Positions 1 to 64,000 of a stretch of 64,000 bases of DNA are shown one piece after another. Numbering within the stretch: the stretch's first letter is position 1; every line of letters begins with the position of its first letter. Source of the DNA: Haliotis asinina (lineage: Eukaryota > Mollusca > Gastropoda > Lepetellida > Haliotidae). The notes under the pieces were generated by a model. That model was not told where the DNA came from and did not search any database. It was given only the letters and a program-made list of their open reading frames with translations. The translations under genes were made by a program, and so were the position numbers. Location of the stretch: NCBI RefSeq assembly GCF_037392515.1, contig NC_090285.1, forward strand, positions 1,677,501-1,741,500, in the 5' to 3' direction.

Positions 1-414
1 AAACTCACAGAGGGCAAACTCTGTCAGCAGCTTGTGTAGGCGGCGGATGCGATCACCAGGTTGAGCAGGAAACCCGTCGCTAACACCAGTCCTGATGTCA
101 TCACGGAATGCCAGGGATCCGCTCACATGACTTTCACCCCTAATTTTAGGGGGATATCGCTTTATTGATTTCATTTACGTCTGCGACAGATGGTCTCCGA
201 GTTTCGTTATAAATTCAGAAGCACTTGTCAGTTTGGTTTTCGCCTCACTCACCTTATACAATTACAAGATACCCACGTTTAGCAGGAAAATGCCCACCTC
301 GTCAAGCATGCAGTTAACCCCCGTGCGATGTTGCCGAAAATGACACTGAATATTTTGGATGGTATGAGCCATGTGTATTTTGCAGTACTAAACCAATACG
401 CAGTTGTCTTTATT
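1..414. other. Left edge of unit 1, intronic or intergenic
   Basis: No coding exon is visible. From about 85 onward the sequence matches the intron that follows the repeat-bearing exon in units 2-5 (the 'caccagtcctgatgtcat' stretch and the 'cccctaattttaggggg' palindrome). This is therefore the intron before the first EF-hand exon of the unit 1 plus-strand gene. The exon that should precede it is not recognisable in bases 1-85, which diverge from the other units. Confidence 0.5.
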
Positions 415-570
415 TGTCAGTCGGTCTGACGAGGTAGTCTTAAAGATAAAGAATTTAGTCTTGGCAACGAAGATGTGGGTTCGGATCCCCACAGTGGTAC
501 AATGTATGAATCCCATTTCCGACGTACTGGAATATTGTTAATGCCAAACTCACCCACTGACTCATCTCTG
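415..570 (+). repeat. tRNA-derived SINE, unit 1
   Basis: A box-B-like motif GGTTCGGATCC lies near 479-489, followed by 'ggtacaatgtatgaatccc' and the tail 'tactggaatattg ... actcacccactgactca'. This arrangement is typical of the gastropod tRNA-related SINE that I recognise from memory. The 3' tail runs to within about 25 bp of the splice acceptor of the EF-hand exon at 594. Equivalents sit at the same place in units 2, 3 and 5 and, truncated, in unit 4, so the insertion predates the array. Confidence 0.6.
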
Positions 571-593
571 AACTGAATGGTTCTGCGCTACAG

Positions 594-2538
594 GACGTAC
601 GTCGGTCGCCAAGCAGAACTCCTGGACACCAACAAAGATGGGCGCGTAGACAGGTCCGAGGCTGCCAACTATCTTGGGGTGGATCACGAGGACGAAGAAC
701 TTCACGATTTCATGGACAAGGCTGATTTCAAACGTGAGTACCTCCGCTTGACGTTCACCATACATTGATCCAGTGGTAGGTAGGGAGGTAGGTAAGGTTT
801 TAGGACCTTGGGCCTTAAAAGGCCTATATGCACCCAACACTTAACAAACAGTTAAATTCTTTCCCAGCCAAATTACGTCGTACGTATCCGTTTAAACGAG
901 GACGTCTAATACAGCACTTTGTATGCAACCATACATTAAATTATCATACATTAGATAAGTATTGCGTTCAGTGTAAAATTGGTTTTGGTTTTATTAAGCA
1001 CAATGTCTTTATGAGCATTACGTGGGTTTTCATGAGCTGGACATTCAACGAGGTAGTGCTGAGCTGTTTCTGGGCAGTGTAAGTTACAGCTTTGTCGATC
1101 CAGTCTACTAAAGGGCGACGGATTACCTTGTGGAATAATTATCATTTAGCATTGCTTTGGAAAGAATGAAAAGGTCATTACGCCATTGCTGCTCTCTTTA
1201 AACAGATTAACGTTCTGAATAGATAAAAGATTCAAATCTTAGAAAAGGCATTTAGATGCAAGACTCGTTTGTATTTCGGTTTAGAATCGGAGTATCTGGG
1301 TTACGTTATATTGTGGCTTGTGTCTAAAACTCAGCTCACTATCTCAGTTGACTCCCGTGTGCATTGCAGGCGACGGTATAGTGGACTTGGACGAGTTCCT
1401 GGATGCCGCCATCATGGCACAAGCCCAGAAGGAACATCGTAAGTTGTTTCTATAGGCCCAGTTCTGATCAAAAGCTATATGTAACTACAATGGTTACGAG
1501 TTATCCTACACGGGCTACGGATTAGGGTCAGAATTAGTTTTGGAACGAACATATTCTTTAGGGTTTACGCATAGGTTTTCGTATTGTTTATAGTTTGGGT
1601 TGGAGTTAGGTTAATGGCGGACATATTTTATAGGGTATACGGTTAGGGTTAGAATTAGGTTAGGGCGGACATATTTTATAGGGTTTATGGATAGGGTTAC
1701 AATTAACTTAGGGGCGGACATATTCTTTAGGGTTTACGGTTAGGGTTAGAGTTAGGCTACGGGGAGGACATATTTTGTAGGGTTTACCGTTAGGGATTGA
1801 ATTAAGTTAGGTGTGGACATATTTACAGGCATTTCGGGTTAGGGTTGAAAGTGATATTATACAAAGCTCCTGATAAACTATGTTTGGGTATATCCTGAGG
1901 CACAAAACATGTTATGTATCGTTCCTGGGATGGAGATCAGGTGGAAAGAGTGGCTTCCGGGTACACACACTGGACACTTGACACCTTATTGTGGAGGCCT
2001 GGCTGAACCACCGTGTCATGTCACCTATGTAGGATGGACTGACTGTCCCGGACTTCCCCAGGGATGTAGTATCGGTTATTACGGGTACTTGAAATACACC
2101 GGAACTATTGCAAAAACATGGCTGCCCTGTTGTTTCGGTGTAGCTGAACTATTGCCGAAATGTGGCTGTACTATTGCTTGAATCTGGCAGCCCTGTTGTT
2201 TAGGTGTGGCTGGAATATTGCTGATTGCTGACGCCACTTAATCCCTTGCCTGGCACGTGCAGATGCAGGCTAGGATTGTCCTCCTTGTCCTGTGTACCAT
2301 TTCAGGGGATCTGTCTCGTTGACTTGGTGGATGTTTGCCAACGTATTCCAGTGGCGCTCCTGGTGCTCATGACTACAGTTACTGTGTAACTGTGTATCCA
2401 CAGACTGGCGTCAGGTAGCTGGGATAGTGCGTATTGTGTCGTGAAACACGAAACCAATCAAAACCCTCCAAATCTGGAAGTGATCCATCTGCTGGTGGAT
2501 ATGTAATGTTACTTCTTCTGTCTGTTTCAGTTGACTGA
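594..2538 (+). CDS. EF-hand calcium-binding protein, plus-strand gene of unit 1 (5' exon(s) not seen)
   Basis: Coding exons are 594-733, 1370-1438 and 2531-2538. Acceptors are 'gctacag', 'cattgcag' and 'ctgtttcag'; donors are C|gtgagt and C|gtaagt. Exon 594-733 encodes a canonical EF-hand loop, DTNKDGRVDRSE. Splicing to 1370 completes a second loop, DFKRDGIVDLDE, followed by a short tail ending ...QKEHLD and a TGA stop at 2536-2538. Loop positions 1, 3, 5, 9 and 12 carry Asp/Asn/Glu in the first loop. In the second loop position 3 is Lys, so its affinity may be lower. The first exon begins in phase 2 (AG|G), so at least one upstream exon is missing from the window or unrecognised. An AATAAA follows at 2589. 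The gene converges on the minus-strand paralogue at 5544-7822. The exact role is unknown; the EF-hand assignment is secure and the gene model is inferred. Confidence 0.65.
1500..1850. repeat. 49-bp TTAGGG-containing minisatellite in the last intron, unit 1
   Basis: About six or seven degenerate copies of a 48-50-bp unit, each with 'ggacatatt', 'atagggttta' and one or more TTAGGG hexamers. Successive 'acatatt' motifs lie 48-50 bp apart at about 1621, 1669, 1718, 1768 and 1817. The array is intronic, and the hexamers are embedded in a longer unit, so it is not a true telomeric run. Confidence 0.75.
2075..2260. repeat. Short degenerate repeats ending in a SINE-like tail
   Basis: Three related segments built on 'aactattgc ... 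catggctgccctgttgttt' are followed by 'gtggctggaatattgctga', which resembles the tail of the gastropod SINE. The stretch is intronic in the unit 1 plus-strand gene and is repeated in unit 2 at about 27040-27185. Confidence 0.4.
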
Positions 2539-2588
2539 GTATATGAACACATTTACATCCATGTGTATCAACACACACGCCAATATTC

Positions 2589-4554: not shown

Positions 4555-4830
4555 TCCAGTCCGGAGTGAACAATTAAACCGGTGATTGCTATCTTAATAT
4601 TACGTTGGGACACGTTATCATATCAGGGTTGACGCCATATAACTCGAACATTGCTCAGTGCGGCGTAAACCTAAACTCACACCAATTAGTAGCCAGAGGC
4701 TGTTCAACTAACCAGGTGGACGATCTCAGAGACTTGACTGTTTCAATGTACCATGACGGGTCAGTAGCTGCTCACAGTATCAACCAGTGGTTTGCCTCAC
4801 CAATAATCGATTATGTACCAACTAAGTTAC
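4555..4830. repeat. Gastropod SINE-like module, unit 1
   Basis: Contains 'gccatataactcgaacattg' and 'ctcagtgcggcgtaaac', matching the 'CGCCATATAGCTGGAATATT' and 'GCTGAGTGCGGCGTAAA' segments I know from abalone interspersed repeats. It is present in every unit, in open frames that are not conserved, so I do not read it as coding. Confidence 0.5.
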
Positions 4831-5066
4831 CATAGCCTATATACATCAACAAAACAAAATGTATTTGCTCTTTTGTATAACAAAATGCTAAATGACGTCA
4901 CCTAAAGTGATTTTACGTTCCCTTCCTCCCTTCCGCGAAAAAAAAACCCCAACAACGTTAATTATAATAAGAGCCGTAAATCTGCACGTGTGTAAAAACT
5001 ACCATCCAACTGAACCCGAGTTAGATCCAACATCACCTGCAACAAATATAAATGTTTGAGTGAAAG

Positions 5067-5072
5067 TTTAAT
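5067..5072 (-). terminator. Candidate poly(A) signal (ATTAAA) of the unit 1 minus-strand gene
   Basis: The minus strand reads ATTAAA about 470 bp past the predicted stop. It is conserved in units 2 and 4 (28880-28885 and 52484-52489) and missing in unit 3, where the 3' end of the gene is deleted. Confidence 0.35.
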
Positions 5073-5543
5073 CAATGCACACAACACGCCAATATCAATA
5101 AGAGGTAAAATAAAATTTAGTTCACGGCAAAGGTTCGACATTCGGTAGCCTCGTTCTGGATTCCGACGTCAGATCGTGGGACTGAAACATACGGACAGTT
5201 CTGTGTATCAGGTGTGTATGATGATGTAGGTTGTGTAGATGATGTGGTCAGTAGATGATTCACATCAATGGAACTGAGTTACATGTCATTTAAGATCGTC
5301 TTTGACACAAGGCATTGCTCAACAACACTCGCGCTCACACAATCACCAAAGCACAAATGGATATACCCTCGCACATACACACTTTTAGACGACGATATCG
5401 TATGGTATGTAATTGGGAAATGTTTCCACGTAATATTCCGTGAGAGATCTCTGGTAACATGCGTGAGTAGGTCCCCATCAAACGTTGCTTGTAATAGCTC
5501 TCTTGTAACCTATGCAGTCTTCAGTAACGAATGCTTGAAAGAG

Positions 5544-7822
5544 TTATCTTATAACCGAGGCTGTAAGAGGGGTGGTACGTAAGTTCCTACGCTTTCATGC
5601 TTTTGGAGCTGAGAGTAATGTGGAATATTGAAGAACATCTGTAGACAGACAGAACACTGTGTACTAGTATCTTGGAGGTATGGCTGTTCTCTGAACACTG
5701 TGGGGAGTGGGGGAAGCAGCAAAGTGTAAACAATAATTACCAGATTCTGGACCTTCGTCCTCGAACGTCAGCGCCGCATCAAAGAACTCGTCCACATCCA
5801 CGTTGCCATCACCTTTCAACCATTACAGAAACGACAATCTGAGGACATGCGTGAAGCCAATGAATCGGACCACAGTGATCGAGTAAAAGCTTTGGTATCT
5901 ACCATTAAAATGTTGTATATAGTGATGTAACAAACATAAACCTTTGCTTATCGTCTATTAGTTAAAATGGTTGTCTACATCACAGAGCTGCATTTGACTC
6001 AACAATGTAACTAAGTACAATCACCCTTCAGACCCAGTGAGACAGTCACACGTACGCACGCACGCGCGCACACCCATTACAAATTGTCAGTGTTAAATGC
6101 GTTATGCTTCCAGCTGTTACGAGCTTCACGTAGCCAGCAACTCACGTTTGGCATCGGCCATGTTCATGAAGTGGTCGAGTTGGGTGTCGCTTTGGTCGAC
6201 TCCGAAGTAGCTAGCGGCCTCGGACCTGTCCACCAATCCATCTGTGTTCGCGTCCACAGCCCGGATCTCACGCTCTGTAAACTTTCTGTTGAAGTGAATA
6301 TTTGCATTGAATGAACATGAAAACGTTCACATCGTTAGGAGCATTCAAAATAATTGAATTTCTAATCATCAGTCGACATGAGTCACCATCAGTCGGTATG
6401 CTCAGCATATCGGAGTCAGGTAACTGAGCGTATGATTGTTTGCCGACCTAGTGCATGCACCGCCGATGACGTCAATGTAATGCTACACTGTGCATTTGTG
6501 TACCCTTGTGGGTCGCGCATTTGCACAGGTATAGAGTTCACGTGATTTCCTGTTGTTCAGCATTTTCTCAGAAACACTTGTGTAGTCCTGGAAAAGACAT
6601 CACGCACGCAGTGATTGTGTTGTATGTGTGACTATTCGGGTATGAATCTGTACAGCTACCTTTTATGAACACACGTCATTTAGAAAGTGGTCAAATGTAA
6701 CACATCTTAAATTTGGTATTACACTTTCTCAGTAAAGTACAGATTCCCATTCGGGTTTCGAACCCACACTCTCAGAGTCGAACACCTAATCACCAGCACG
6801 CAAGCCATGTAACCCATTCAGCTACCACGCCTTCCACAAAAACTCATAATTTCACATATGTGCTATACTGTTTAGTTTATCAAAAATACACGTTTTCATT
6901 CAATGAGTTGAGTTTTCCGATGAAACAGTAGTTGACATTAAAACCATACTGAACAAAATACCGATAATCAAATCTGCAAAGAAATCATTTTTAAGGGGCA
7001 CAGATGAATCATATCATTTGACCATTTGTCACCTAAGCGATAAAAATCAGAGTAACTTTGATTAGCAACAGAAACAAAGTTCAGTTCTCGTTAAGGCAAA
7101 CTACCTGTGAAAGTCAGCGAAACGGACTTTTCTACTGACAATCATTAATGACACCGGGTGTTCGTGAGAAGAGTAATATGTTGCATGACAAAATTAAGCG
7201 TTACAGTCCTCGTACAGCAGTACGTACTCCAGCCATCCGGTGGTGGCTTGTACACAAAACAAACAAGTGATCAATCGACTAGAAAGTCCACTGACAGTAC
7301 GGTGAAATTGCTAATGCAAGTGTGGGTAAGTGATTTAAGTTTTAGCAAGATTCTAGCAGTATCACAGCGCGGGACAACAGAAATGGGCTTCACATTGTAT
7401 CCGTGTGGGGAATTGAACCCGAGTTTACGACGTGACGAGCGAACACGTTTACCATTGGGCTATCCCACTGCGTCTTTCTGAAGAGTAGCACTTTTACATA
7501 AAAACAGGCTTGATTGGTGTCTGTTAAAAGTGATAATACTGAATAATGTTGTCGAAACATAATCTTTTACAGTGTACCATAATTAGTAGAACATTGAAAC
7601 TAAGAGTTATTTCAATAAATACGTTAACTGTAAATACCTGTACAGACCACACCCGATCTTTATTCCCGTGTGGTCAGGCCTGAAATAGGTTTTAGCCACA
7701 GTACCCAAAACTGGCTTGATGAAGGGTTTACTTGTTCGTCTCCCCCAACGTTTTCGCCAAAACCCATCCTTTCCCATGACGACCAGGACAGTGGTCAAAC
7801 ATAGAAGAAACGCCAGCTTCAT
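5544..7822 (-). CDS. Small secreted EF-hand protein, minus-strand gene of unit 1
   Basis: Four coding exons: 7638-7822, 6146-6285, 5741-5812 and 5544-5560, all with GT-AG borders and matching phases (AG|A, C|GT, G|CC). The predicted product is 137 aa. Residues 1-16 (MKLAFLLCLTTVLVVM) form a signal peptide. A strongly basic, aromatic stretch, FWRKRWGRR, follows, then a Pro/Lys-rich segment. EF-hand 1 is DANTDGLVDRSE; EF-hand 2, built across the second intron, is DAKRDGNVDVDE. The tail is ...FEDEGPESASVIR. An acceptor, TTTTCAG, lies 7 bp upstream of the ATG, so a 5' untranslated exon probably exists farther upstream. The first coding intron is longer than in the other units because of SINE insertions. 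Likely role: an extracellular calcium-binding protein. Small secreted EF-hand proteins occur in molluscan shell matrix and body fluids, but nothing here fixes the tissue. Confidence 0.72.
6432..6895 (-). repeat. Unit 1-specific insertion carrying a tRNA-like SINE head
   Basis: About 460 bp absent from units 2-4, inside the first coding intron of the minus-strand gene. On the minus strand, about 6835-6735, it reads like a tRNA: 'TGGTAGCTGAATGGGTTA' resembles box A and 'GGGTTCGAAACCCG' is a good box B/T-arm. The cloverleaf is not complete enough for a functional tRNA, so I read it as the head of a tRNA-derived SINE. Confidence 0.5.
7380..7482 (-). repeat. tRNA-derived SINE head, minus strand, unit 1
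   Basis: On the minus strand it reads GCAGTGGGATAGCCCAATGG (box A region), then 'GTTCGCTCGTCACG', then GGGTTCAATTCCCCACA (box B region) and 'ATACAATGTGAAGCCCATTT'. This is the widespread gastropod SINE arrangement. Shorter remnants, with the middle deleted, sit at the same place in units 2 (30645-30705), 3 and 4. Confidence 0.65.
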
Positions 7823-8309
7823 TCTTACTCTGAAAATAATGTCAAATCATGAGAAATTCGGTAATGGAGACATGCGCATAATGTAGTTCATGAAGAGAAG
7901 TTGGCAAGGCCCGATTATTCAAGAGATTTGAAAATTATGTCAAATCGTGAGAATTCGGTAATGGAGACATGTTCTGGTCATGATTACACATGTTCTGGTC
8001 GATGTATATTTACTACACTTCTGCAACAATAATTATGAGCGCAGTTCTCCAGTCTTGCTGCCCCCAGAGCAGCCTCCAACTAACAGACAGGTTGACAGTA
8101 CACGTAGTTCTCTCTTTCTGCTATGTTGCAGTGATTCTGGTTGCCAACATATTTTCAAGCCGTTACTGAGAATAAAAACCAAACAGAAATAAATGAAATA
8201 ATAAAAGAAAAATTGTAAAAGCATTTATCAAATGCTATGGAGAAAACAACAACAAAAAAATCCATTCTCATGAAGATAAATGAACACTTTTATCTCAGGT
8301 GGATTCAGC

Positions 8310-9930
8310 TATAACGACACTAACGTAACTGCTACACTATAGCAGCCTACAATGACACTAACGTAACTCCTACACTATAGCAGCCTACAATGACACTAAG
8401 GTAACTCCTACACTATAGCAGCTACAATGACACTAACGTAACTCATACACTATAGGAGCCTACAATGACACTAAGGTAACTCCTACACTATAGCAGCCTA
8501 CAATGACACTAACGTAACTCCTACACTATAGCAGCTACAATGACACTAAGGTATCTCCTACACTATAGGAGCCTACAACGACACTAAGGTATCTCCTACA
8601 CTATAGCAGCTACAACGACACTAAGGTAACTCATACACTATAGCAGCCTACAATGACACTAACGTAACTCCTACACTATAGGAGCCTACAATGACACTAA
8701 GGTAACTCCTACACTATAGCAGCCTACAATGACACTAAGGTAACTCCTACACTATAGCAGCTACAACGACACTAACGTAACTCCTACACTATAGCAGCTA
8801 CAACGACACTAACGTAACTCCTACACTATAGCAGCCTACAATGACACTAAGGTAACTCCTACACTATAGCAGCCTACAACGACCCTAATGTAACTCCTAC
8901 ACTATAGCAGCTACAACGACACTAACGTAACTCCTACACTATAGCAGCCTACAACGACACTAAGGTATCTCCTACACTATAGCAGCCTACAATGACACTA
9001 ACGTAACTCCTACACTATAGCAGCCTACAATGACACTAACGTAACTCCTACACTATAGCAGCCTACAGTGACACTAACGTAACTCCTACACTATAGCAGG
9101 CTACAATGACACTAAGGTAACTCCTACACTATAGCAGCTACAATGACACTAAGGTAACTCCTACACTATAGCAGCCTACAATGACACTAACGTAACTCCT
9201 ACACTATAGCAGCCTACAATGACACTAACGTTACTCCTACACTATAGCAGCCTACAATGACACTAAGGTATCTCCTACACTATAGCAGCCTACAATGACA
9301 CTAAGGTATCTCCTACACTATAGCAGCTACAACGACACTAAGGTATCTCCTACACTATAGCAGCCTACAATGACACTAACGTAACTCCTACACTATAGCA
9401 GCTACAATGACACTACCGTAACTCCTACACTATAGCAGCCTACAATGACACTAAGGTAACTCCTACACTATAGGAGCCTACAATGACACTAAGGTAACTC
9501 CTACACTATAGCAGCCTACAATGACACTAAGGTAACTCCTACACTATAGCAGCCTACAATGACACTAACGTAACTCCTACACTATAGCAGCTACAACGAC
9601 ACTAAGGTATCTCCTACACTATAGCAGCTACAACGACACTAAGGTAACTCCTACACTATAGCAGCCTACAACGACACTAAGGTATCTCCTACACTATAGG
9701 AGCCTACAACGACACTAACGTAACTCCTACACTATAGCAGCTACAACGACACTAAGGTATCTCCTACACTATAGGAGCTACAACGACACTAACGTAACTC
9801 CTACACTATAGCAGCTACAACGACACTAAGGTATCTCCTACACTATAGGAGCTACAACGACACTAACGTAACTCCTACACTATAGCAGCTACAACGACAC
9901 TAAGGTATCTCCTACACTAAAGGAGCTACA
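8310..9930. repeat. 37-38-bp satellite array, about 43 copies, unit 1 only
   Basis: Head-to-tail copies of a unit containing 'ctcctacactatagcagc', 'ctacaatgacactaa' and 'cgtaa' or 'ggtat'. Copies alternate between 37 and 38 bp according to 'agctac' or 'agcctac'. Variant positions (aacg/aagg, gtaact/gtatct, tgac/cgac) fall in blocks, as expected from unequal exchange. The array begins about 480 bp upstream of the start codon of the minus-strand gene, probably inside its 5' intron, and is absent from units 2-4. Confidence 0.9.
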
Positions 9931-9934
9931 ATTA

Positions 9935-10705
9935 TAGCTTGTTTCATAATTCAGCTGATCAGAGATACACGACTATCAATCTCGGTCTAATGAAAATGTG
10001 AGAGAGACGGTTCCGTGCCTGGAAGTAAGTCACGGGAGATATCTTATAGGGACCCCTACAAGAATACTACCATCACAAGTTTAGACTCGCTGGTGTAAAT
10101 GTAGCCACTCACTTCAGACAACTGTTCTAAACTACACTAAATACCAAAGAAACGTCACCCTTGTACTTCTAAGAATTACTGAAAAACCATTAAAGATATG
10201 TTAGGATGTATTAGTTTGCAAGAAAACATTGCAACACAGCTTAATCCAAATCACGAAAAAAGATTCTCAAATGTATGCATTGTACGTGAAAGGCATCTTT
10301 TTAGAGGAACTACAATTGTCCTATTAATGTACATACCGACATAAACCGGTACGTTAACCGGTATGTTAATCTTTGTTGACATTTTGACATGCAAAGTAAC
10401 ATTTTTCTTATAGAGAATGTAGAATGTTCTTATAGAGCTCAGAGAATAAAGCTGTGTATCTTTATGGTGAGACCATGTAAACCAGCGGCCAAAAGAAACG
10501 CCACCAAAATAGAAACGAATGTAAATTGTCAAAATAATTTGAAAATAGCTAAAAGCACATATCTCAAACACAGCATGTCTATTCCCAGTGAAAATTTGCA
10601 CTTTTATGAAAAAAATAACGCCGAATGTGCACAAAGTTACCCGTATCAAACTAGGCTATAAAAACTAAAGAGGTGTATTCTCTTACGCCGACTGACAACA
10701 GGACC
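9935..10705. other. Non-coding stretch between satellite and Tc1 remnant
   Basis: AT-rich sequence without convincing exons. The part from about 10390 is shared with units 2-4; the part before that is specific to unit 1. A minus-strand open frame at 10251-10649 is not preserved in the other units. A TATA-like 'ctataaaaact' near 10658 is conserved in all units, but no gene start follows it. Confidence 0.4.
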
Positions 10706-10709
10706 ATAA

Positions 10710-11165
10710 CTCGTTTAACACCAGAGCGGAGGTAGCGAGCAATCTGTATGTTACAGATGGAACAGACACAAGAGCATGTGGCTGGGACCATGGGATGCTG
10801 CAAATTCATCATCGGAAGACACGTCACACGTCTACGGCAGAAGACAGCACTGTAGACAGCAGATAGAGTGTGATCAGACGACTCCGAATTAGTAGTCTCT
10901 GTGCCGATCGACCTTTCAAGGGAATGACGTTGACGTGCCAACCCCAATATGCCAGATTGAAATGAACCAGGACTGTGCCACACTGGCAGCAGCGAAACTG
11001 GCGAAGAGTGAAGTTTGGTGACGAAAGCAAGTTTTAGCTCTACAACATCAGCCGCTCACTGAGCACCTTTGGGAATAATTGGGACGTCGCATTCGGAACA
11101 TTCGTCGCATTCACATATCCCTCAACAAAACGTCAGAAGAATCAGCTACTCACTTCGACCTCACT
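10710..11165 (+). pseudogene. Tc1-like transposase remnant A, unit 1
   Basis: Plus-strand frames show pieces of a Tc1/mariner transposase. They are an N-terminal helix-turn-helix-like segment (ending RHVTRLRQ), then a 'KFGDESKF*LY' stretch like the VMFTDESRFQLY block around the first catalytic Asp, then 'LGRRIRNIR', like the EHLWDELGRRVRRRP block near the C-terminus. The central catalytic part is missing and stops interrupt the frames, so the copy is dead. No terminal inverted repeats are obvious. Compared with units 2-4 this copy has lost a further roughly 100 bp. Confidence 0.6.
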
Positions 11166-12090
11166 TCTGCTGCTCAGAAAGTTATAAAAACTCCAAGTCC
11201 ATTCTGCATTGGTGATCAAATACTGGATAATGCACCCCCGTGTCAATCTTGTGATAACAGATAACGAGCTGCGTTGTTTTTCTTCTCGTTATCCATTACA
11301 TACTGCTGCTGAATGATTGCTTTTTGCAATAAAACATTCACCGTGACCATATTTTGCTTAAGTTTTGTTTTGTTTTGGCCAGAAAATCCATAGGAATCCC
11401 GTAGAATTGCGAACCATCATACACCATATGGGCTACACTGTTGAGTCACTGCCGTGACAGATGACTAACCTTTTTCTTAATGTTATGTAGATATACCTAT
11501 GTAGATAACACACCAATACCAGTCTTTTTGGCTACAAGCGGAATGTTGAATTACAATCTAACTCTAAATCCGCAAAAGCTGACCATCTTAAAGCCAAACC
11601 AAACCACAACACCAGAACACCACCAAGCTTATTGTAAGGAACAAGATTGACTTCTCAGCCCGAAAACTACTTGAAGCTGTCCGTAACAGAATATTAGCTC
11701 ACCCATCAACAGAGATGAAGGATATGCTACAACGACTACTATAAATCTGAAACTAAAGTTTAAATTGGGAAGTAGTGTTTTTTATGCACCAGTGCATTTA
11801 CAAATATTTCAGTGTGTTTTATTGGCAGAATCAGTTTATAAAAGCCTATTAAGTACGACATCGTTCATGGTTGCTAGCAAATGGTGTTATTTGTCAAACA
11901 GCTGCAACGTCAAGGAGTATTTAATTTCTTGTGGTGATATCGATGTATCATGGACCCTCGAGAAATACATAATCTTCCTATTTTGCCTAAATGAGTTCTG
12001 TATCGATGCACTAGTATCTCGTAGTTGACGATGAATCGTTACACCACTAGCAAAGACAGACTAGAAAGCATGATATAACACAAGAGTACG
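11166..12090. other. Repeat-derived stretch, no gene recognised
   Basis: Shared with units 2-4 apart from indels. It includes the unit 1 equivalent (about 11560-11745) of an open frame found intact in units 2-4 (see 32424-32648); here frameshifts break it. Nothing else in the stretch can be assigned. Confidence 0.35.
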
Positions 12091-12096
12091 AGAATC

Positions 12097-12310
12097 ATGC
12101 CACGATTAACAGCTGAAGAGGGCGAAAAGGCCCTTGGGTTCTCGTGGATGGTGTCACATACAATGATGTTACCAACGCCCTCGGATGCCATCGTGTCAGG
12201 ATTGTAAGACATATTCAGCGCTACAGACAGACTGGGGTCACCGTTGACAGGCCAATAAGTGGACGTACACGCATCACAACGCCAGCTGGAGACAAACAAG
12301 AAACACGTCA
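12097..12310 (+). pseudogene. Tc1-like transposase remnant B (N-terminus), unit 1
   Basis: Starts ATG-CCA-CGA (MPRLTAEEGERAL) and, after a frameshift, continues as GVTYNDVTNALGCHRVRIVR and HIQRYRQTGVTVDRPISGR. This is the bipartite helix-turn-helix DNA-binding region of a Tc1-like transposase, followed by the typical 'RPRSGRPRVTT'-like linker (here RPISGRTRITTPAGD). Nothing resembling the DDE catalytic domain follows. The same remnant occurs in units 2-4. Confidence 0.6.
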
Positions 12311-14963: not shown

Positions 14964-14980
14964 AAGAAATGACGTCCTCG

Positions 14981-48777: not shown

Positions 48778-48804
48778 CATGCATGTATAGCCATTAATAA
48801 TTCA

Positions 48805-50979: not shown

Positions 50980-50987
50980 GTTACATT

Positions 50988-51734: not shown

Positions 51735-52005
51735 TCCAATCCAGAGTGAACAATTAAACCGGTGATTGCTATCTTAACATTACTTTGGGGCACGTTATAA
51801 TATCAAGGTTGCCGCCATATAGCTCGAATATTGCTCAGTGCGGCATAAACCTAAACTCACACCAATTAGTAGCCACGGGGCCGTTCAACTAACCAGGTGG
51901 ACGATCTCCGAGACTTGACTGGTTCAATGTACCATGACGGGTCAGTAGCTGCTCACAGTATCAACCAGTGATTTGCCTCACCCATAATCGATTATGTACC
52001 GACTA
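51735..52005. repeat. Gastropod SINE-like module, unit 4
   Basis: Equivalent of 4555-4830. Confidence 0.5.
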
Positions 52006-52951
52006 TAAACACCAACCAAACAAAATGTATTTGCTCTTTTGTATACCAGATAAATGTGAAATGACGTCACCTAAAGTGATTTTACGTTCTCTTCTTTTAA
52101 CGTTTCCTCCCCTTCAGCAAAAAAACGATATAATGTGAGGCGTAGATCTGGTTTGAGCAGATTAGTGAAATAAGTTTTCGTTTGATATCTATTCAACAAA
52201 TACATGAAAAAGCTCCAGTTACCAAAAAGAAACCTTATATTCATATTTGATACTATCTAACCGTCCCCTGATATGTGATTTACCACTGAATACACGCTAT
52301 GACTGCACCATCTTGTGGCAGCACGCCAAATGGGTAATCTTCGTGTACCCATTGAATTCAAAACGTTTTCCTTTCCCGTCTCCAGCTGTGTGAACGCATA
52401 TACACGTGTGTAAAACTACCATCCAACTGAACCCGAGTTATATTGGACATCACATGGAACAAACACAAATGTCTGAGTGAAACTTTAATCAATGCACACA
52501 GCACGCCAATGTCAATAAGAGAGAAAATAGTTCATCGCACAGGTTCGACATTCGGCAGACGTGTTCTGGATTCCGACATCAGATCACGGGGCTGAAACAC
52601 ACGAACAGTTCTGTGCATCAGGTGTGTTTGATGATGTGGTCAGTAGAACATTCACATCAGTGGAACTGAGTTACATTTCATTTAATGATCGTCTTTGACA
52701 CAATCCATTGCTCAACAAGACTCGCGCACACACAATCACCAAAACACAATACATGTATACCCTCGCACACACACAGTCACACACATTTTTAGACGCCGAT
52801 ATCGTATGGTATGTAATTACGAAACGTTTCCATGTAATATTCCGTGAGAGATCTCTGGTAACATGCCTGAGTGGGTCCCCATCAAACGTTGCTTGTAATA
52901 GCTCTCGATGCAGTCTTCAGTAACGAATGCCTGAAAGAGTTATCCTATAAG

Positions 52952-54613
52952 CTAGGCTGTAAGAGGGGTGGTACGTAAGTTCCTACGCTTTCATGCTTTT
53001 GGAGCTGAGAGTAATGTGGAATATTGAAGAACATCTGTAGACAGATAGAACATTGTGTACTAGTATGTTGGAGGTATGGTTGTTCTCTGAACACTGGGGG
53101 TGGGGGTGGGGGTGGGGGAAGCAGCAAAGTGTAAACAATAATTACCAGATTCTGGACCTTCGTCCTCGAACGTCAGCGCCGCATCAAAGAACTCGTCCAC
53201 ATCCACGTTGCCATCACCTTTCAACCATTACAGAAACGACAATCTGAGGACGTGCGTGAAGTCAATGACTCGAACCACAGTGATCGACTAAAACCTTTGG
53301 AATCTACCATTACAATGTTGTATATAGTGATGTAACATACATAAACCTTTGCTTATAGTCTATTAGGTAGAATGGGTGTCTAAATCACAGAGCTACATTT
53401 AGCTCACCAATATAACTTAGACAAACGCCCTCACACCCAGTGAGACAGTCACACGCACGCAAGCACGCACACACGCACACCCACTGGGATAACCACCGTA
53501 ACTTAAAGCTGTATGCGACATTAGAAGCTGTCAGTGTTAAATGCTTTATGCCTCCAGCTGTTACGAGTTTCACGTAGCCAGCAACTCACGTTTGGCATCG
53601 GCCATGTTCATGAAGTGGTCGAGTTGGGCGTCGCTTTGGTCGACTCCGAAGTAGCTAGCGGCCTCGGACCAGTCCACCAAACCATCTGTGTTCGCGTCCA
53701 GAGCCCGGATCTCACGCTCTGTAAACTTTCTGTTGAAGTTCGTTAGGAGCATTCAGAATAATTGAATTTCTAATCATCAGTCGACATGAGTCACCATCAA
53801 TCGGTAAGCTCTGACATCAGCTTATCGGAGTCAGGTAACAGAGCGCATTCATTCAATGAGCTGAGTTTCCGGATGAAATAGTAAATGACATTAAAACCAT
53901 ACTGAACAAAATACCGATAAGCAATTTGCGAAGAAATCGTTTTTAAGGAGCACAGATGAATCATAACATTTGACCTTTTGTAACCTAAGCGATGGAAATC
54001 AGAGTAATCGTGATTAGCAACAGAAACAGAAGTTCAGTTCTCCTTAAGGCAAACTACCTGTGAAAGTCAGCAAAAGGGACTTTTCTACTGATAATCATTA
54101 ATGACACCATGTGTTCGGGAGAAGAGTAATATGTTGTCCTACCGTTAGCACCCGCTGTTTACAGTATTTGCATGACAAAATTAAGCGTTACAGTCCTCGT
54201 ACAGCATCCATGTGGAGAATCGAACCCGAGTTTACACTTTTACCACTGGGCTATCCCACTGCGTCTTAATGAAGAGTAGCTCTTTTCGATAAAAAGAGAC
54301 TTGAGTGGTGTCTGTTGAAAGTGATAATACTGAATAATGTTGTCGAAACATTATCTTTTACAGTGTACCATAATTAGTAGAACATTGAAACCAAGAGTTA
54401 TTTCAATAAATACGTTAACTGTAAATACCTGTACAGACCACACCCGATCTTTATTCCCGTGTGGTCAGGCCTGAAATAGGTTTTAGCCACAGTACTCAAA
54501 ACTGGCTTGATGAAGGGTTTACTTGTTCGTCTCCCCCAACGTTTTCGCCAAAACCCATCCGTTCCCATGACGACCAGGACAGTGGTCAAACATACAAGAA
54601 ACGCCAGCTTCAT
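52952..54613 (-). CDS. Small secreted EF-hand protein, minus-strand gene of unit 4
   Basis: Coding exons are 54429-54613, 53590-53729, 53146-53217 and 52952-52956, with all borders conserved. The predicted product is 133 aa: signal peptide MKLAFLVCLTTVLVVMG, then FWRKRWGRR, then loops DANTDGLVDWSE and DAKRDGNVDVDE, ending GPESA. Distinctive residues are Cys rather than Leu-Cys order shifts in the signal peptide (FLVCL), Ser in KPVLSTVAK and Leu in IRALDANTDG. The third intron contains a G-rich run (gggggtgggggtggggg, about 53095). Candidate ATTAAA at 52484-52489. Secreted calcium binder, as for units 1 and 2. Confidence 0.7.
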
Positions 54614-54659
54614 TCTTACTCTGAAAATAATGTCAAATCATGTGAAATTCGGTAATGGA

Positions 54660-55060
54660 GACATGCGCATAATGTAGTTCATGAAGAGAAGTTGGCTAGG
54701 CCCGAGTATTCAAGAGATTTGAGACATGAGAATTCTGTAATTCCTAATCGCGATCCAAATCGCGATTACATGTATTCCATAGAGCATAGAGAGTAGAGCT
54801 TTGTATCTTCGCCTAAGTAGCGAGACCATATAAACCAGCGGCCAAAAGAAACGCCACCAAATAGAAACGACTGTAAATTGCCAAAATATCTGAAAATAGC
54901 TAAAACACATATCTCGAACACAGCATGTCTATTCCCACTGGACATTGGCACTTTTACGGGAAAAAAACGAAAATGCACAAATACAGAAAACTGTGCACAA
55001 AGTTACCCGTTTCATACTAGGCTATAAAAATTAACCAGGTTTATTCTCTTACACCGATTG
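54660..55060. other. Upstream region of the unit 4 minus-strand gene
   Basis: Equivalent of 31055-31545; no exon recognised. The conserved 'ctataaaaa' motif lies near 55022. Confidence 0.35.
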
Positions 55061-55078
55061 ACAACAGGACCATACCTC

Positions 55079-55537
55079 GTTTAACACCAGAGCGGAGGTA
55101 GCGAGCAATCTGTATGTTACAGATGGAACAGACACAAGAACGTGTGGCTAAGACCATGGGATGCTTCAAATTCATCATTGAAAGGCACGTCACACGTCTA
55201 CGGCAGACTGACAGTACTGTAGACAGGCCAAAGAGCGATATACTGAAGGAGTCCACCCAACTGGCAGCATCGACACTGGCAAAAAATGTGAAATTTCCTG
55301 ACGGAAGCAAGTTTTAGCTCTACAAGATCAGTGCTCCTCTGAGCACCTTTGGGAATAATTGGGACGTCGTATTCGGAAACGCATAAGCAACCATTGACGA
55401 GGAACGGGTTGGCAGTTGCTCTGCTAAAGGAGTGGAATCGTATCCCTAATCAAAACGTCAGAAGAATCAGCTACTCACTTCGACCCCAGATTCAAGCCTG
55501 TATCACTGTTAGGGGAGGCGATACCCGGCACTGAGCA
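55079..55537 (+). pseudogene. Tc1-like transposase remnant A, unit 4
   Basis: Contains MLQMEQTQERVAKTMGC, IERHVTRLRQTDSTVDRP, NVKFPDGSKF and the C-terminal RIPNQNVRRISYSLRP block. Same internal deletion as units 2 and 3. Confidence 0.63.
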
Positions 55538-55946
55538 ATATGTGCTGCTCAGAAAGTTGTAAAAGCTCCAAGTCCATTCTGCATTGGTGATCAAATACTG
55601 GATAATGCACCCCAGTGTCAATCTTGTGATAACAGATAACAATCTGCGTTGTTTTTCTTCTTGTTATCCATTACATACTGCTGCTGAATGATTGCTTTTT
55701 GTCATAACACATTCAACGTGACCATATTTTGCCTAAGTTTTGTTTTAGGCCAGAACATCTATATGAATCCCGTAGAATTGCGTCGCTAACCATCATACAC
55801 CATATGGGCTACACATTTGAGTCACTGCCGTGATAGATGACTAACCCTCTTCTTAATGGTATTGTCCATATTTGGACCCTATGTAGATACCACACCAATG
55901 CCAGTCTGTTTGGCTAAAAACGGAATGCTGAATTACAATGTAGCTC

Positions 55947-56171
55947 AGTGAAGACTCTAAATCCGCAAAAGTCGACCATCTTAAAACCAATTCAAACCAC
56001 AACATCAGATGGAACACCATCAGGTTTATCCAAAGGAACAAGACTGACTTCTCAGCTCGCAAACTACTTGAAGCTGTCCGTAAAAGAACATTAGTCCACC
56101 CATCAACAGAGATGAAGGATCTACTACTACGACCACCATTAATCTGTTTCCCCTGGGAAGTCGAGTTTTAG
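55947..56171 (+). pseudogene. Open frame of unknown origin, unit 4 copy
   Basis: Copy of 32424-32648 with several replacements; still open. Confidence 0.28.
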
Positions 56172-56658
56172 GCAGCAATGCTTTTACAAACAATTCAGTG
56201 TATTGTATTGTATATCCTCTCTCTGTTACGACATCGTTCATAGTTGTTAATAAATGGTGTTATTTGTCTAACAACTGAAACATATTTCAGTTACTTGAAG
56301 ACGAATATTTAACAGTCCACAGAGTTGTTTACATTCTGTCACTTCTACACTGACTCCTTTTTTTCAGGTAACAAAGACAGTAGACACAAGCACATTCCTA
56401 ATTGTTTTTCAAATTCAGATGAATTTGAATGAGACTCTCTTCCTATTCCTAATGCAATACGCCTTGCAACGTCAAGTAGTATTTAATTTCTTGAGGTGAT
56501 ATCGATGTATCATGGACCCTCGAGACATAAATAATCCTGATATTTTGCCTAAATGTGTTTTGTATCGAAGCACTAGTATACCGTAGTTGACGATGAATCG
56601 TTACACCACTAACAAAGACAGACTAGAAAGCATGATCTAACACACAAGTACGAGAATC

Positions 56659-56815
56659 ATGCCACGATTAACAGCTGAAGAGGAAGAAAGGGCCCATCGT
56701 GTCAGGATTGTAAGACGTATTCAGCGCTACAAACAGACTGGGGTCACCGTTGACAGACCAATAAGTGGACGTACACGCATCACAACGCCAGCTGGAGATG
56801 GGTACCTCCGTTATT
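56659..56815 (+). pseudogene. Tc1-like transposase remnant B, unit 4, shortened
   Basis: As 33103-33310, but with a deletion of about 55 bp in the middle of the DNA-binding part. Confidence 0.55.
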
Positions 56816-57309
56816 AACAAAGAAGGATAACGATTCTTTTGTCGTTACTATACTACTGGCACCTGTCTTATCTCATAACATACTATCAAGATTAACAGGA
56901 AAGAAAGAAACGAAACAACAAGAAACACGACACTTTGTTTGGTGGAAAGACAGGCACATGGTCACTGTAATGTCAAGACAGTTGTGACAGCACACTGTCA
57001 CTGCAGTGTTGCAACCATAGCAGTAAAACCACTATACCTACCTTTGTCTGGATGTCTGGCTCTGCGCATCGACTGGTTGTACCTCGGGATTTTAAACACT
57101 CATGGTGTTAAGTTCATGGGCGGCGATCCCTGGGCAAAGTCATGAAAAGGTCCTTCAGTTTTCCCACAATGTGTGATGTCCGGGGTGCCAGCTGGTGTGC
57201 TGTGGATATCTACGCAATATGCTACTGAAACACTATCTAACATCATCATAATCATGTGTGAATGTGTCATTACCTGAACGTTTACACAATGTCTAAAGTT
57301 TCTGCAGTT

Positions 57310-58168
57310 CCCTCTCGCATACACAGACACACTGTTCCTTGTTACATTCACTTACACCCTGTTCCCCTGTCAAATTCATTGCCACCCTCTTCGCTGTCAA
57401 AATCACTGACACATTGCTCCCTGTCACATACACACACTGTTCCCTGTCACATGCACACCGCTCGGTTCCCTGCCACATACCCAAACGCTCTGTTCCCTGT
57501 CACCAACACGGACACCCAGTTCTTAATCACATACACATACTCTGTTTCCTCTCACATGCACAGACACCCTGTTCTGTCACATGGACTGACACCAAGTCAT
57601 GTTTCACATACACAGACACCCTGTTCCCTGTGGCACATACACAGACGCCTTGCTACCTGTCGCATACACACACACCGCATTCCCAGTCAGATACACAGAT
57701 ACCCTGTACGCCCTGTCATACACAGACACCCTGTTCAATGTGTCACACACAGAAACCCTGTAACGTATGTCATAACCAGACACCCTGCTCACTGGCACAT
57801 ACATTGAACACCTTTTTCCTGTCACATACACAGACGCCATCTTAACCTTCACATGGATAGACAGCGTGTCACATATACACACAGATCCCACCCACAACGA
57901 CACTCTATTTCTTGTTGCATAAAACGACACCGGTTCCCTGTCACAAACACAGAAACCATGTCCTCTGTCACCTACACAGACACCAAGCTGCCGATCACAT
58001 ACAGACACATGCACGTGTTCCCTGTCACATACACAAAAACCCTATTCACTCTCTCATACGCAGACACCCTGTTCTCTCTCACATACACTGACACACTGTC
58101 TCTTCACACAAACACAGACACCCTGTTGCCAGTCACAAACACATACATATAGTTTCCTGTCAAACATA

Positions 58169-58200
<32 letters not shown>

Positions 58201-58446
58201 TACATACAGACACTGTGTTCCCTGTCTCACATACACACCCCTGGTTCCATCTCACATACACACACATCCTGTTACTTGTCACATACACAGATAAGCTGTT
58301 CACTGATCAAACGGAGAAATCCCGTTCCCTCTCACAAACACAGACACCATGTTGAAAGTCAACTACAAAAGCATCATATCACACATACACACAAACACAC
58401 ACACAAACGCTCAAACAAACACACTTAGCACACACTCACATTCACA

Positions 58447-58497
<51 letters not shown>

Positions 58498-59575
58498 GTC
58501 ACTAACACAGACACAATGTTCTTTGATACATAAAGTGACACCCTGTTCCCTGTCACATGCACGGACACCATATTTCCCGTCACATACACCGTCATCTTGT
58601 TTCCGGATAGATACACTGACAGCCTGTTCCCTGTAATGCACACAGACACCCTGTTTCGTGTCACGTACAGAAACAACCTGTTCCCTGTCACATACACTAA
58701 CAAACAGGTGCCCGTCACATGCACAGACACCCTCTTCATTGCTTCATACACAGCCGCCCTGATTACTATCACATACACACACACGCACACACTGTATTCC
58801 CAGTCAGATACACATATATCATGTTCACTGTCACATGCAGAACCCGTGTATACAGACACACTGTTTCCTGTCACGCACACAGACATAGTCGTTAGTGTCA
58901 CAGATTCGGTTCCCTGTCATCTACACAGACACTCTGTTTCTGCCACGTACACAGACACACCATTGCCAGTCACATGCATACACACACTATTCCCTATTAT
59001 ATACACACATTTTGGCTGTCACAAACACGGACACATTGTTGCTCGTAACAAACACAGACACTCTGTTCCCTCAGAAATACACTGACACTCTGTTCTCCGT
59101 CTCATACACAAACACACTGTAACTTATGTCATACCCATGCACATTGTTCCCTGCCTTATACACTGACATCCTGTCCCCGGTCACCTACACAGATGCCCTA
59201 CTCCCTGTCACACCCTCTGACACCCTGTGTTATACACAGCCATCATTTTTCCTTTCACAAACACAGACACCGTAATCCCCGTCACACACACACGCACACA
59301 CTCACGGCACTCTGTCACATACACAGACACAATGTTGCCTGAGACATACACTGACATCCTCTTCCTTGTCACATACACAGACATCCAGTCTCCTGATAGA
59401 TACGCTGACACCTTATTAACTGTCATAAGTACGGAAATCCTGTTCCATGCCACATACACATACACCCTCTTCCCTAAAAGATACACTGACACCTTGTTCC
59501 CTGCCACATACACAGACACTATGTTCACTGTTACACACACAGGCACCCTGTTCCCTTTCACAGATACAGACACCC
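57310..59575. repeat. 27-bp minisatellite, unit 4
   Basis: About 2.3 kb, with a (CA)n run near 58458-58496. Indels of whole or partial repeats distinguish it from units 2 and 3. Confidence 0.85.
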
Positions 59576-59743
59576 TGGGACAATCACGGTCATACTTAAG
59601 TAATACAGAAACTGTTTGTGATCTTAAAGTCATTTCAAATTGACAACCATCTGTAACAAAACATTCAGGAGTAGAACAAAATTCCATCTTATGTTGAATC
59701 CTATAGCTAACCTCAAGGTAGCAAACACGCACAATATATTCCA

Positions 59744-60037
59744 GTGCTGTTATACAGATTAGCTACAGATAGAAGCAGGAACATCATGAGATGTGATGGT
59801 AGCTCTTGTATCCCATCTGTTGTCGGTAACAACAGTTTCCTACAAGGGGTCGAGGTGTTACAGTCAATACAACCACCAAAGATACCTAACACCTCGTTAC
59901 CTGACACGAAATCAGCATTTGTTACGGATGGCTCACATCCGGGTACACCAGAGTGTGAACTGCAGTATGACGCACGGAAATCAGAAGCCCGTGTAACACC
60001 TCCGACCAGTCCCTGCCCCAGTCCCTCCTCTATATAG
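59744..60037 (+). other. Conserved 97-codon open frame, unit 4 copy
   Basis: Copy of 36348-36641. Confidence 0.25.
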
Positions 60038-60297
60038 GCGCCTGATACCCTTGGACAGATGGCTGGTTGACGGTTCGTCCACTCCATTTAGTGAGACTTG
60101 TTCTGGCGTTGTCCTGGATCTACAACAGCCCTAGCATTACACAGAAATTTCTATCCTATTGTACAGATTAAAGTACAAAATACTGAGGCGATTTTGATAT
60201 GCGTACAAAGCAGTCAGTTTCTCCGTTTCTCATTGTCCACCAAGAAAAGCACTGTGCAACGACTTTTTCAACTTGATATTCGGTATCAAAAGGAAAT

Positions 60298-60600
60298 ATG
60301 AAATGGCTACTATCGTATTTTTCTATATACGACAACAAAGGGGATGTAGCTTCTGAGTTTATTCCACGGCCAGAGTCCAACTGCCGAACTTCGTTCGGAC
60401 CTCCCAGAATATCCCTTGCCGCTGAAACTCACGGGTCATCAGCTGGTCATCCCTGGGTCCTCAGAGCTCAGCCCAGCTCAGCCTCCCTTACAAGTACATA
60501 CAGTAATATATTCTGTCTAGTCTACACATGCAATAAGTTCTTAATTCTACGGTACCTACTTTCTTCCACGTTTCATTTATATTTATACCAAGTACACTAA
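60298..60600 (+). other. Conserved 100-codon open frame, unit 4 copy
   Basis: Copy of 36902-37204. Confidence 0.2.
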
Positions 60601-60627
60601 CATGCATGTATAGCCATTAATAATTCA

Positions 60628-61025
60628 TATATCTATCACATACCTACGACATTTATATATCTGTAACATCTATAACATCACTATACCACATTTACATATC
60701 TGTAACATCTATCACATACCTACGACATTTATATATCTGTAACATCTACAACATCACTATACCACATTTACATATCTGTAACATCTATCACATACCTACG
60801 ACATTTATATATCTATAACATCTATAACATACCTACGACATTTACATATCTGTAACATCTATAACATACCTACGACATTTATATATCTATAACATCTACA
60901 ACATCACTATACCACATTTACATATCTATAACATCTATAGCATAACTACGAGATTTATATATCTATAACATCTACAACATCACTACGACATTTCTATATG
61001 TAAAACATCTATAACATCACTACGA
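60628..61025. repeat. AT-rich 37-bp VNTR, unit 4
   Basis: About 11 copies. The repeat variants (atctatcacatacct) differ from units 2 and 3. Confidence 0.85.
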
Positions 61026-61415
61026 TACTACTATGAATTTCTGATGATAGAGCTCTGAGCATGCACCAACAGATGGTGCATATTACACTCTACAAACAAA
61101 GAAACGCATTGTGAAAGTCAAATATGATACTTACAATATGTACACATATCTAAACTCAAACACTTTTGGGGTTTGCACATTGTTTCTGGAATGTTTTAGA
61201 AGATCATGCTTGACCAAACGCATCCGAAACTGATTTTGAATGGTTTTGTCAATCAGGATTGTCATCATGTGTTTGGATGTCATGCAGCACGAAGATCAGG
61301 CACAATGACTATATGTGACTATAAAAGAACCAAATGACTCTCACAATTTCAGCCAAGATCTTTGCAAATACTGTACACGACAATGGGACGTCTCAACGCT
61401 GCCGATCGAAATTAG

Positions 61416-62947
61416 GCAATTGAACGACTGCAAGCTGACGAATCAAAGAGTGAAGGGCAAGGATCTTCGATTTGGTCAAAGAAATTCGACAAATGAGCAC
61501 GATCATCCACGACCTTTGCAAATTGAATACGACGATTCCTGAAACCGACAATACAATTGGGACGATTCCTGAAACCGGCAATACAATTGGGTCGATTCTT
61601 GAAACCGGCAATACAACTGGGTCGCAAGTACTTGCCCAAAATACACCGCGGGATAAATACTTTCATCTGTACAGGTAACGTATTTGTATGGTAGCCTGCA
61701 ACACCAGTCGCAAACACCAGTCCTGATGTCACTGAAACCAGGGATCCACTCAAATGACTTTCACCCCTAATTTTAGGGGGATATCGCTTTATTGATTTCA
61801 TTTACGACTGCGACAGATGGTCTCCGAATTTCGTTACATGTTCAGAAGCATCTGTCAGTATGATTTTCATCTTACTCACCTTACACAATTACAAGATACC
61901 CACGTTTAGCAGGAAAATGCCCACCTCATCAAGCATGCAGTTAAGCCTTGGGCGATGTTAGCACTAAATATTTTTGGTGGCATGAGCCATGTGTATTTTG
62001 CAGTACTAAACCAATACGCAGCTGTCTTTATTTGTCAGTCGGACTGACAAGGTAGTCTAAAAGATGAAGCCTTTAGTCTTGGCAACGAAGATGCGGGTTC
62101 GGATTCCCATAGTGGTACAATATATGAATCCCATTTCCGACGTACTGGAATATTGGTAAATCCAAGCTCACCCACTAACTCATTTCTGAACTGAATGGTT
62201 CTACGCTACAGGAAGTACGTCAAGCAGAGTTCCTGGACACCAACAAAGATGGCCGCGTAGACAGGTCCGAGGCTGCCAACTCTCTTGGGGTGGATCACGA
62301 GGACGAAGAACTTCACGGTTTCATGGACAAGGCTCATTTCAAACGTGAGTACCTCCGTTTAACGTTCACCATACGTTGATCCAGTGTACTTTTGCAGGAG
62401 TACCGGGTACTTGTGGTATAATTATCATTTAGCATTGCTTTGGAAAGAATGAAGAGGTCATTACACCATTGCTGCTCTCTATAAACATATTAACATTTTG
62501 AACAGATAAAACAGAGATCAGGTGGACACAGTGACTTCTCGGTAGACACACTGGACACTTGACACCTTATTGAGGAGACCTGGCTGAGCTACCGTGTCAT
62601 GTCACCTATGTAGGGTGGACTGACTGTCCTGTGTACCATTTCAGGGGATCTGTCTCGTTGACTTGGTGGATGTTTGCCAACGTATTCCAGTGGCGCTCCT
62701 GGTGCTCATGACTACAGTTACTGAGTTGTCTTCCCGATTCGATTATTAACAGACTGGTGTCAGATAGCTGGGATAGTGTGTATTGTGTTGTGAAACACGA
62801 AACCAATCAAAACCCTCCAAATCTGGAATTGATTCATCTGTTGATGGATAATATGTAATGTTACTTCTTTTTTCTCTTTCAGTTGACTGAGGATATGAAC
62901 ACATTTTACATCCTTATGTATCAACGCATACGCCAATATTCAATAAA
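61416..62947 (+). pseudogene. EF-hand gene relic, plus strand, unit 5
   Basis: The repeat exon (61416-61674) has three 10-residue repeats but a 1-bp deletion near 61453, upstream of them, which breaks the helical segment's frame. The EF-hand exon (62212-62344) has the shared 7-bp deletion, and the second EF-hand exon is missing. The last-exon acceptor TTTCAG (62880-62882) and AATAAA (62942-62947) remain. TATA candidate at 61319. Confidence 0.65.
62030..62205 (+). repeat. tRNA-derived SINE, unit 5
   Basis: Same module as 415-570. Confidence 0.55.
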
Positions 62948-62954
62948 GTTACAT

Positions 62955-63500
62955 TTTGTTTCATGTCAACTCTCCTTGTTGTGTGTTATACAGTATGGTT
63001 GGTGTATATGGCTTCTGTTTCATGTCAACTCTCCTTGTTGTGTGTTATACAGTATGGTTGATATGGCTTCTGTTTGACGTCAACTCTCCTTGTTGTGTTT
63101 TATACAGTGTGGTTGATGTACAGAGTTTCTGTTTCATGTGAACTCTCCCTGTTCTGTTTTTTTTTCAGTATGGCTGATGTACAGGGCTTCTGCCAAAACT
63201 GTACATGCAGGCGCCGTGTGGGTTCTCATAACAATCTGTCCTATCATCCCTACAGGGTTGTCTACTTGCTGGTCAACTTTACCGAATTTCTAGAGTGGCA
63301 TTATTTAGAAGTTGGGGAGTAATATAAGGACAAGCTTTATGGATTAACAGTTTCTTTATTCAGATGATGCGACGTTTCCATACAGATTCTTTATCTTTGT
63401 CAGATACCATCTTGACAACGAAACAAAAATCTGTATCGAAACGTCGCATCATCTGACTAAAGAACTTGTTCATCCATAAAGCTTGCCCTTATAAGTTTAG
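62955..63500. repeat. 59-bp repeats, small Cys-rich frame and hairpin element, unit 5
   Basis: Four 59-bp copies (the most of any unit), then the 50-codon frame at 63170-63322 (MADVQGFC..., Lys to Asn near the end). The full-arm hairpin follows at about 63323-63500. Confidence 0.6.
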
Positions 63501-63754
63501 CGAAATGGCGACATGAGACGTAAAGAAGGAAATTCACACAAAATACCGAGTGGACATTAAAGCGAGGCGCACACACGAGTACACAGTCTCAACCTGTGGC
63601 ACAGCGATGTTTGGTTAACGCATGTTTTCTAATGTTCTATTTATGACCAGGCAGCATATATTTTATCACATAAAACAAAACTAACAGACATGGAGTCAAC
63701 ACAGGGAGATAGTGTTGTTTTAGTTCGTCCTACTGCAGCCACACTACAGGCCTG

Positions 63755-64000
63755 AAAATATTCCAATCCAGAGTGAACAATTAAACCGGTGATTGCTATC
63801 TTAACATTACTTTGGGGCACGTTATAATATCAAGGTTGCCGCCATATAGCTCGAATATTGCTCAGTGCGGCGTAAACCTAAACTCACTCCAATTAGTAGC
63901 CACGGGGCCGTTCAACTACCCAGGTGGATGATCTCCGAGACTTGACTGTTTCAATGTACCATGACGGGTCAGTAGCTGCTCACAGTATCAACCAGTGATT
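63755..64000. repeat. Gastropod SINE-like module, unit 5, cut by the window end
   Basis: Equivalent of 4555-4830. The minus-strand gene of unit 5 would lie beyond the window. Confidence 0.5.

Follow-up and report, generated by a model that had tools for sequence, protein, structure and literature searches.

The 64,000-nucleotide stretch of Haliotis asinina DNA analyzed here (C6:1677501-1741500, where C6 is contig NC_090285.1; hereafter the window) lies in a tandem array of small genes that encode predicted secreted proteins with two EF-hands. From the sequence, we consider it probable that the array grew in tandem from two paralogous genes arranged head to head, SARP19-type in layout, and that in it the gene on the minus strand (the minus gene) was kept and the gene on the plus strand (the plus gene) decayed. 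The array, the phase of its units, the paralogy of the two genes and the state of the copies as assembled were observed directly. The tandem array of secreted EF-hand genes is real, and as a gene-family expansion it is fairly ordinary. A convergent pair of working genes, as put forward in an earlier note on this DNA, is thereby replaced with a simpler reading, in which a head-to-head block was duplicated and kept one paralogue but lost the other.

We propose that tandem duplication together with unequal crossing-over or conversion brought the head-to-head pair to six units, and that the minus gene stayed readable in most copies whereas only the leftmost copy of the plus gene escaped decay. The minus copies may be expressed, which would give a higher dose of an extracellular Ca2+-binding protein, possibly in tissues of the larva or the digestive gland.

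Extent and phase of the array

The window and 100 kb on each side (264 kb) were compared with unit 3, and the genome (1.14 Gb, 159 contigs) was searched exon by exon, with a limited number of candidates scored. Positions are window coordinates; adding 1677500 gives the position on C6, and negative values or values above 64000 lie in the flanks. With the flanking assembly counted, the array spans about 88 kb, from about -11478 to about 76639, and consists of six units (16.1, 23.6, 12.2, 11.4, 12.0 and 12.8 kb) carrying six minus copies (c0-c5) and six plus copies (p1-p6). In the flanks there is one further plus copy, with its EF exon at 73370, and two further minus copies start at -8519 and 66665, so that the comparison with the flanking assembly confirmed the array and carried it past the window on both sides. 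The unit length of about 12 kb given in the earlier note holds for the units of 12.2, 11.4, 12.0 and 12.8 kb but not for those of 16.1 and 23.6 kb; the 23.6-kb unit is U1, which contains a 9.7-kb LTR retroelement and a 38-bp minisatellite. Its starts for the plus EF exon (594, 26043, 38857, 50253 and 62212) were exact in all five cases, each following the same splice-acceptor-like 8 bases, and so were its four starts for the minus signal-peptide exon (7822, 31048, 42555 and 54613), each beginning with ATG. The homologous modules of the units are collinear, on the same strand and mostly 80-99% identical, which supports the constant order and orientation described there.

An EF-loop pattern matched nine times in the window; in 30 resamples from a first-order Markov model it averaged 0.03 matches and never exceeded 1. 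In the genome, all 29 matches of the minus protein at E up to 0.1 fell in the array, although the C-terminal stretch of this query was wrong. Of 25 matches of the plus protein at E up to 1, 23 were in the array and two weak ones on C13, and the DNA of the plus EF exon matched six places, all in the array. The two places on C13 (48598323-48598604 and 48671800-48672102; E 0.26 and 0.44) begin with a signal-peptide-like stretch and continue with a run of arginines; they are possible distant relatives too weak to place.

In unit-3 coordinates the left edge of the array (-11478) falls at 40417 and the right edge (76639) at 40399, about 18 bp apart. Because both edges lie at the same unit phase, the amplified block is the head-to-head pair, minus gene then plus gene. 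The repeated block begins beyond the 3' end of the minus gene, takes in that gene, the spacer and the plus gene, and ends past the latter. Head-to-tail units in an array that starts and ends at the same unit phase agree with what is expected of unequal crossing-over. A dispersed short interspersed repeat stands at every unit start (near 4645, 28279, 40431 and 51825). Its core occurred at 20 places in the 264 kb at up to 5 mismatches, six of which are the unit starts, and a near variant of the core, itself mismatched to the unit copies, had 167 exact matches in the genome against none for a reversed control. It may be that this repeat seeded the first duplication.

Structure and paralogy of the two genes

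The minus gene has exons of 185, 140 and 72 nt; in c0, exon 1 measures 233 nt owing to a 48-nt in-frame insert. Copies c0-c4 have GT donors and AG acceptors, and exons 1-3 are open in these five of the six copies as assembled, while in c5 exon 1 contains a stop and the donor after exon 2 is altered. A provisional exon 4 in c2-c5 completes a four-exon model of 161 residues. In plus copy p1 the exons measure 170, 140 and 69 nt. The minus and plus genes are paralogues: their proteins share 45% identity over about 120 residues (E 1e-34), and the genes have an identical exon 2 length of 140 nt and the same intron phases.

Both proteins have a signal-peptide-like start, a tryptophan/arginine-rich basic stretch and an acidic EF-hand pair. 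The predicted signal sequence has a mean hydropathy of 2.8 over residues 3-16 in both, and the net charge is +9/+11 at residues 18-62 and -14/-12 after. Each protein has two loops of 12 residues, and in both genes intron 2 interrupts the second. PF00036 scored 25.5 on the minus protein (Pfam cut-off 25.4), and PF13499, the EF-hand pair, scored 31.8 on the plus protein (cut-off 30). AG stands directly before ATG in both genes, which suggests an untranslated first exon.

A dense cluster of exons, calmodulin-like by eye, lies at C8:54.10-54.69 Mb of the same assembly and holds 46 of the 140 EF-hand pair matches in the genome. EF-hand genes are clustered there also, but the exons read show neither the signal peptide nor the basic stretch that the array genes have.

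Relation to SARP19

By layout the array proteins appear most like the SARP19 type, being predicted to be secreted and having two EF-hands and a putative N-terminal signal sequence. He et al. 2014 reportedly name a SARP19 gene family in abalone, together with vdg3, in their title. In the accessible part of its description, SARP-19 of Littorina has 168 residues, a signal sequence and two EF-hands, and calcium-activated signalling or sequestering is proposed for it (PMC2699829); compared by description, the provisional four-exon minus model has 161 residues. The accessible parts of four further sources place SARP-19 in gastropod larvae and metamorphosis (PMC3517415, PMC9826900, PMC4938671, PMC5714496).

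The same array could encode another kind of secreted EF-hand protein, such as a shell matrix or mantle protein, rather than SARP19. Any extracellular calcium-handling protein could combine secretion with a basic stretch and an acidic EF pair, the likeness to SARP19 rests on description, and a profile of four of the proteins found only general EF-hand proteins among the best 60 of 234 matches in the PDB. On the other hand, a SARP19 gene family in abalone is said to be named in a paper title. Layout and length also agree with SARP-19 as described in the accessible part of PMC2699829. We regard a different kind of protein as rather unlikely and keep to the SARP19 type. If this is correct, the locus would map, gene by gene, a family that the literature links to metamorphosis and digestive gland in abalone.

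An identity with vdg3, our first idea, was dropped. vdg3 of Haliotis is mollusc-specific and abundant in the larval and postlarval digestive gland (PMC3517415), and vdg3 is also reported from mussel digestive gland (PMC5549309). In the accessible parts of these two sources no EF-hands are described for vdg3, unlike the array proteins, a comparison made by description only.

Among the titles listed in literature searches on EF-hand arrays in abalone or gastropods and on SARP terms, none describes such an array, as the earlier note had supposed, most subscription journals being outside the coverage. Nor did these listings show any head-to-head array in tandem whose partner gene has decayed.

Sequence constraint and points against the reading

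Divergence in exons was compared with that in introns and near flanks for copies c0-c4, with c5 left out. Between c0 and c1-c4 the exons differed by 0.048-0.053 and the introns and near flanks by 0.098-0.198; between c1 and c2-c4 the values were 0.013-0.018 and 0.110-0.123. In comparisons with c0 or c1, exons thus diverged about 2-9 times more slowly than introns and near flanks, and these older comparisons show constraint or exon-centred conversion.

Several points weigh against our reading. Among c2-c4 there was no such difference (exons 0.013-0.025, introns and near flanks 0.013-0.026), so that the recent comparisons are silent on constraint. The ratio dN/dS was 0.41-0.72 for c0 versus the others, where synonymous changes numbered 6-9. 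Among c1-c5 it was 0.28-1.72 on 0-3.5 synonymous changes, with one value undefined. As a measure among the copies it is too noisy to use. Exon 4 of the minus gene is provisional: its acceptor is altered in c0, its region is replaced in c1, and no counterpart was found in the plus gene. PF13499 scored 27 on the minus protein, below the cut-off of 30, and EF loop 2 has K at position 3. Finally, the proposed kinship with SARP19 is by layout only.

A hybrid sequence in unit U3

In sequence, U3 is a hybrid of two older units: its left part is U4-like, its right part is U2-like, and the main switch lies at 42242-42334. At 276 informative U2/U4 sites split at 42290, U3 followed U4 at 55 of 61 sites on the left (U2 at 6) and U2 at 175 of 215 on the right (U4 at 39, neither at 1). 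Fisher's test of this contrast gave p 2e-25, which is only indicative because neighbouring sites are linked. Left of the switch U3 is 99.2% identical to U4 (2018/2034), and right of it 99.2% identical to U2 (9061/9139). Right of the switch there are also U4-like patches, for instance at 51649-51790 and, within a minisatellite, at 48881-48916; they suggest either additional exchange or misalignment. Such a pattern would arise if U2 and U4 had been neighbours and had crossed over unequally, and U3 is then a clear case for watching that process in a young array; a false contig join would look the same.

Indeed, U3 could be an assembly artefact in which a U4-left contig was joined to a U2-right contig, the sources being two haplotypes or repeats that had collapsed. 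The changeover is almost clean, and the identity of 99.2% to each parent side would be within the allele range of a heterozygous animal. However, there is no N in the 264-kb stretch, and the other five units differ by several per cent with private indels and, in U1, a private retroelement, differences that alleles of one unit would not give. We judge the artefact improbable for U3, and less likely still for the array as a whole, and continue to read U3 as a product of exchange between units.

Probable decay of the plus gene

The plus gene is readable in one of its six copies, the leftmost (p1); the signal-peptide exon of this copy is outside the window, a short way to the left. In p2, exon 1 is absent and exon 3 has an 11-nt deletion. 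Copies p3-p6 keep a remnant of exon 1 that lacks the signal peptide and has a 4-nt deletion, and their exon 2 has a 7-nt deletion; exon 3 was not found in p3-p5, and in p6 it carries the 11-nt deletion. Since p2-p6 lack exons or have frameshifting deletions, five of the six plus copies are disabled as assembled. We accordingly rejected p2-p6 as working genes, as the signal-peptide part is gone and the exons have 4-, 7- or 11-nt deletions.

These results bear on the claim that the amplified unit was a convergent pair of EF-hand genes, both of them working. A plus and a minus gene, always in the same order, do converge, but they do so across unit junctions only: the array ends do not bound whole convergent pairs, and their shared phase gives divergent units. 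The amplification of the whole pair fails for the plus gene as a gene, with one of its six copies readable and the other five disabled. We thus find a convergent working pair very improbable, and prefer the duplication of a head-to-head block with loss of the plus gene. It is also very improbable that the decayed plus partners were kept for a function, their EF exon and acceptor, which face the 3' ends of the minus genes, being transcribed and tuning the minus copies (or being spliced to other first exons); each unit of this family of secreted proteins would then contain a pseudogene that converges on the minus gene and regulates it.

Table 1. Features of the array inside the window (window coordinates)
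Feature	Position	Strand	Remark
Unit U1	4632..28264		divergent phase; minus c1, LTR element, plus p2
Unit U2	28265..40416		minus c2, plus p3
Unit U3	40417..51810		minus c3, plus p4; hybrid
Unit U4	51811..63837		minus c4, plus p5
Minus c1 exon 1	7638..7822	-	signal peptide, basic stretch
Minus c1 exon 2	6146..6285	-	EF-hand 1
Minus c1 exon 3	5741..5812	-	EF-hand 2; exon 4 region replaced
Minus c2 exon 1	30864..31048	-	
Minus c2 exon 2	30000..30139	-	
Minus c2 exon 3	29540..29611	-	
Minus c2 exon 4	28693..28781	-	provisional; ends derived from tblastn match
Minus c3 exon 1	42371..42555	-	
Minus c3 exon 2	41532..41671	-	
Minus c3 exon 3	41088..41159	-	
Minus c3 exon 4	40903..40991	-	provisional
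Minus c4 exon 1	54429..54613	-	
Minus c4 exon 2	53590..53729	-	
Minus c4 exon 3	53146..53217	-	
Minus c4 exon 4	52297..52385	-	provisional
Plus p1 exon 2	594..733	+	EF-hand 1; exon 1 at -326 to -157, outside window
Plus p1 exon 3	1370..1438	+	EF-hand 2
Plus p2 exon 2	26043..26182	+	open; exon 3 remnant near 26491-26550
Plus p3 exon 2	38857..38989	+	7-nt deletion; exon 1 remnant 38239-38307
Plus p4 exon 2	50253..50385	+	7-nt deletion; exon 1 remnant 49936-50004
Plus p5 exon 2	62212..62344	+	7-nt deletion; exon 1 remnant 61593-61661
LTR retroelement in U1	13650..23335	-	9.7 kb
27-bp minisatellite, U3	45374..47754		between the head-to-head genes
Other 27-bp minisatellite copies	12686-13222, 34505-36181, 58495-59577		
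38-bp minisatellite in U1	8309-9932		

Retroelement, repeats and neighbourhood

The long terminal repeat (LTR) retroelement in U1 has reverse transcriptase, RNase H and integrase domains and a gag-like frame that matches PNMA; from our own reading of the domain order it is probably Gypsy-type. Its two 1302-bp LTRs differ at 2 positions and the element is young; U1 gained it later than the array grew. The 25-kb spacing of copies is partly due to this element. Because it sits in a CA repeat, a target-site duplication is unreadable.

Directly left of the array, at about 1600.9-1665.3 kb of C6 (window -76583 to -12181), there are about seven genes, similar by eye, of approximately 270 residues and mostly a single open frame; three that were scanned had no Pfam match at E 0.01. 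Rfam gave no match at gathering score, no tRNA was found, and a plasmid collection, of little use for an animal gene, had no match.

The 27-bp repeat was considered as a coding array and rejected, being open in several frames on both strands with a unit match of 58-68%. Minisatellites with a period of 37, 38 or 76 bp lie at 8309-9932, 37235-37666, 48852-49393 and 60631-61025, and the last three occupy the same place in their units with a length that differs between units.
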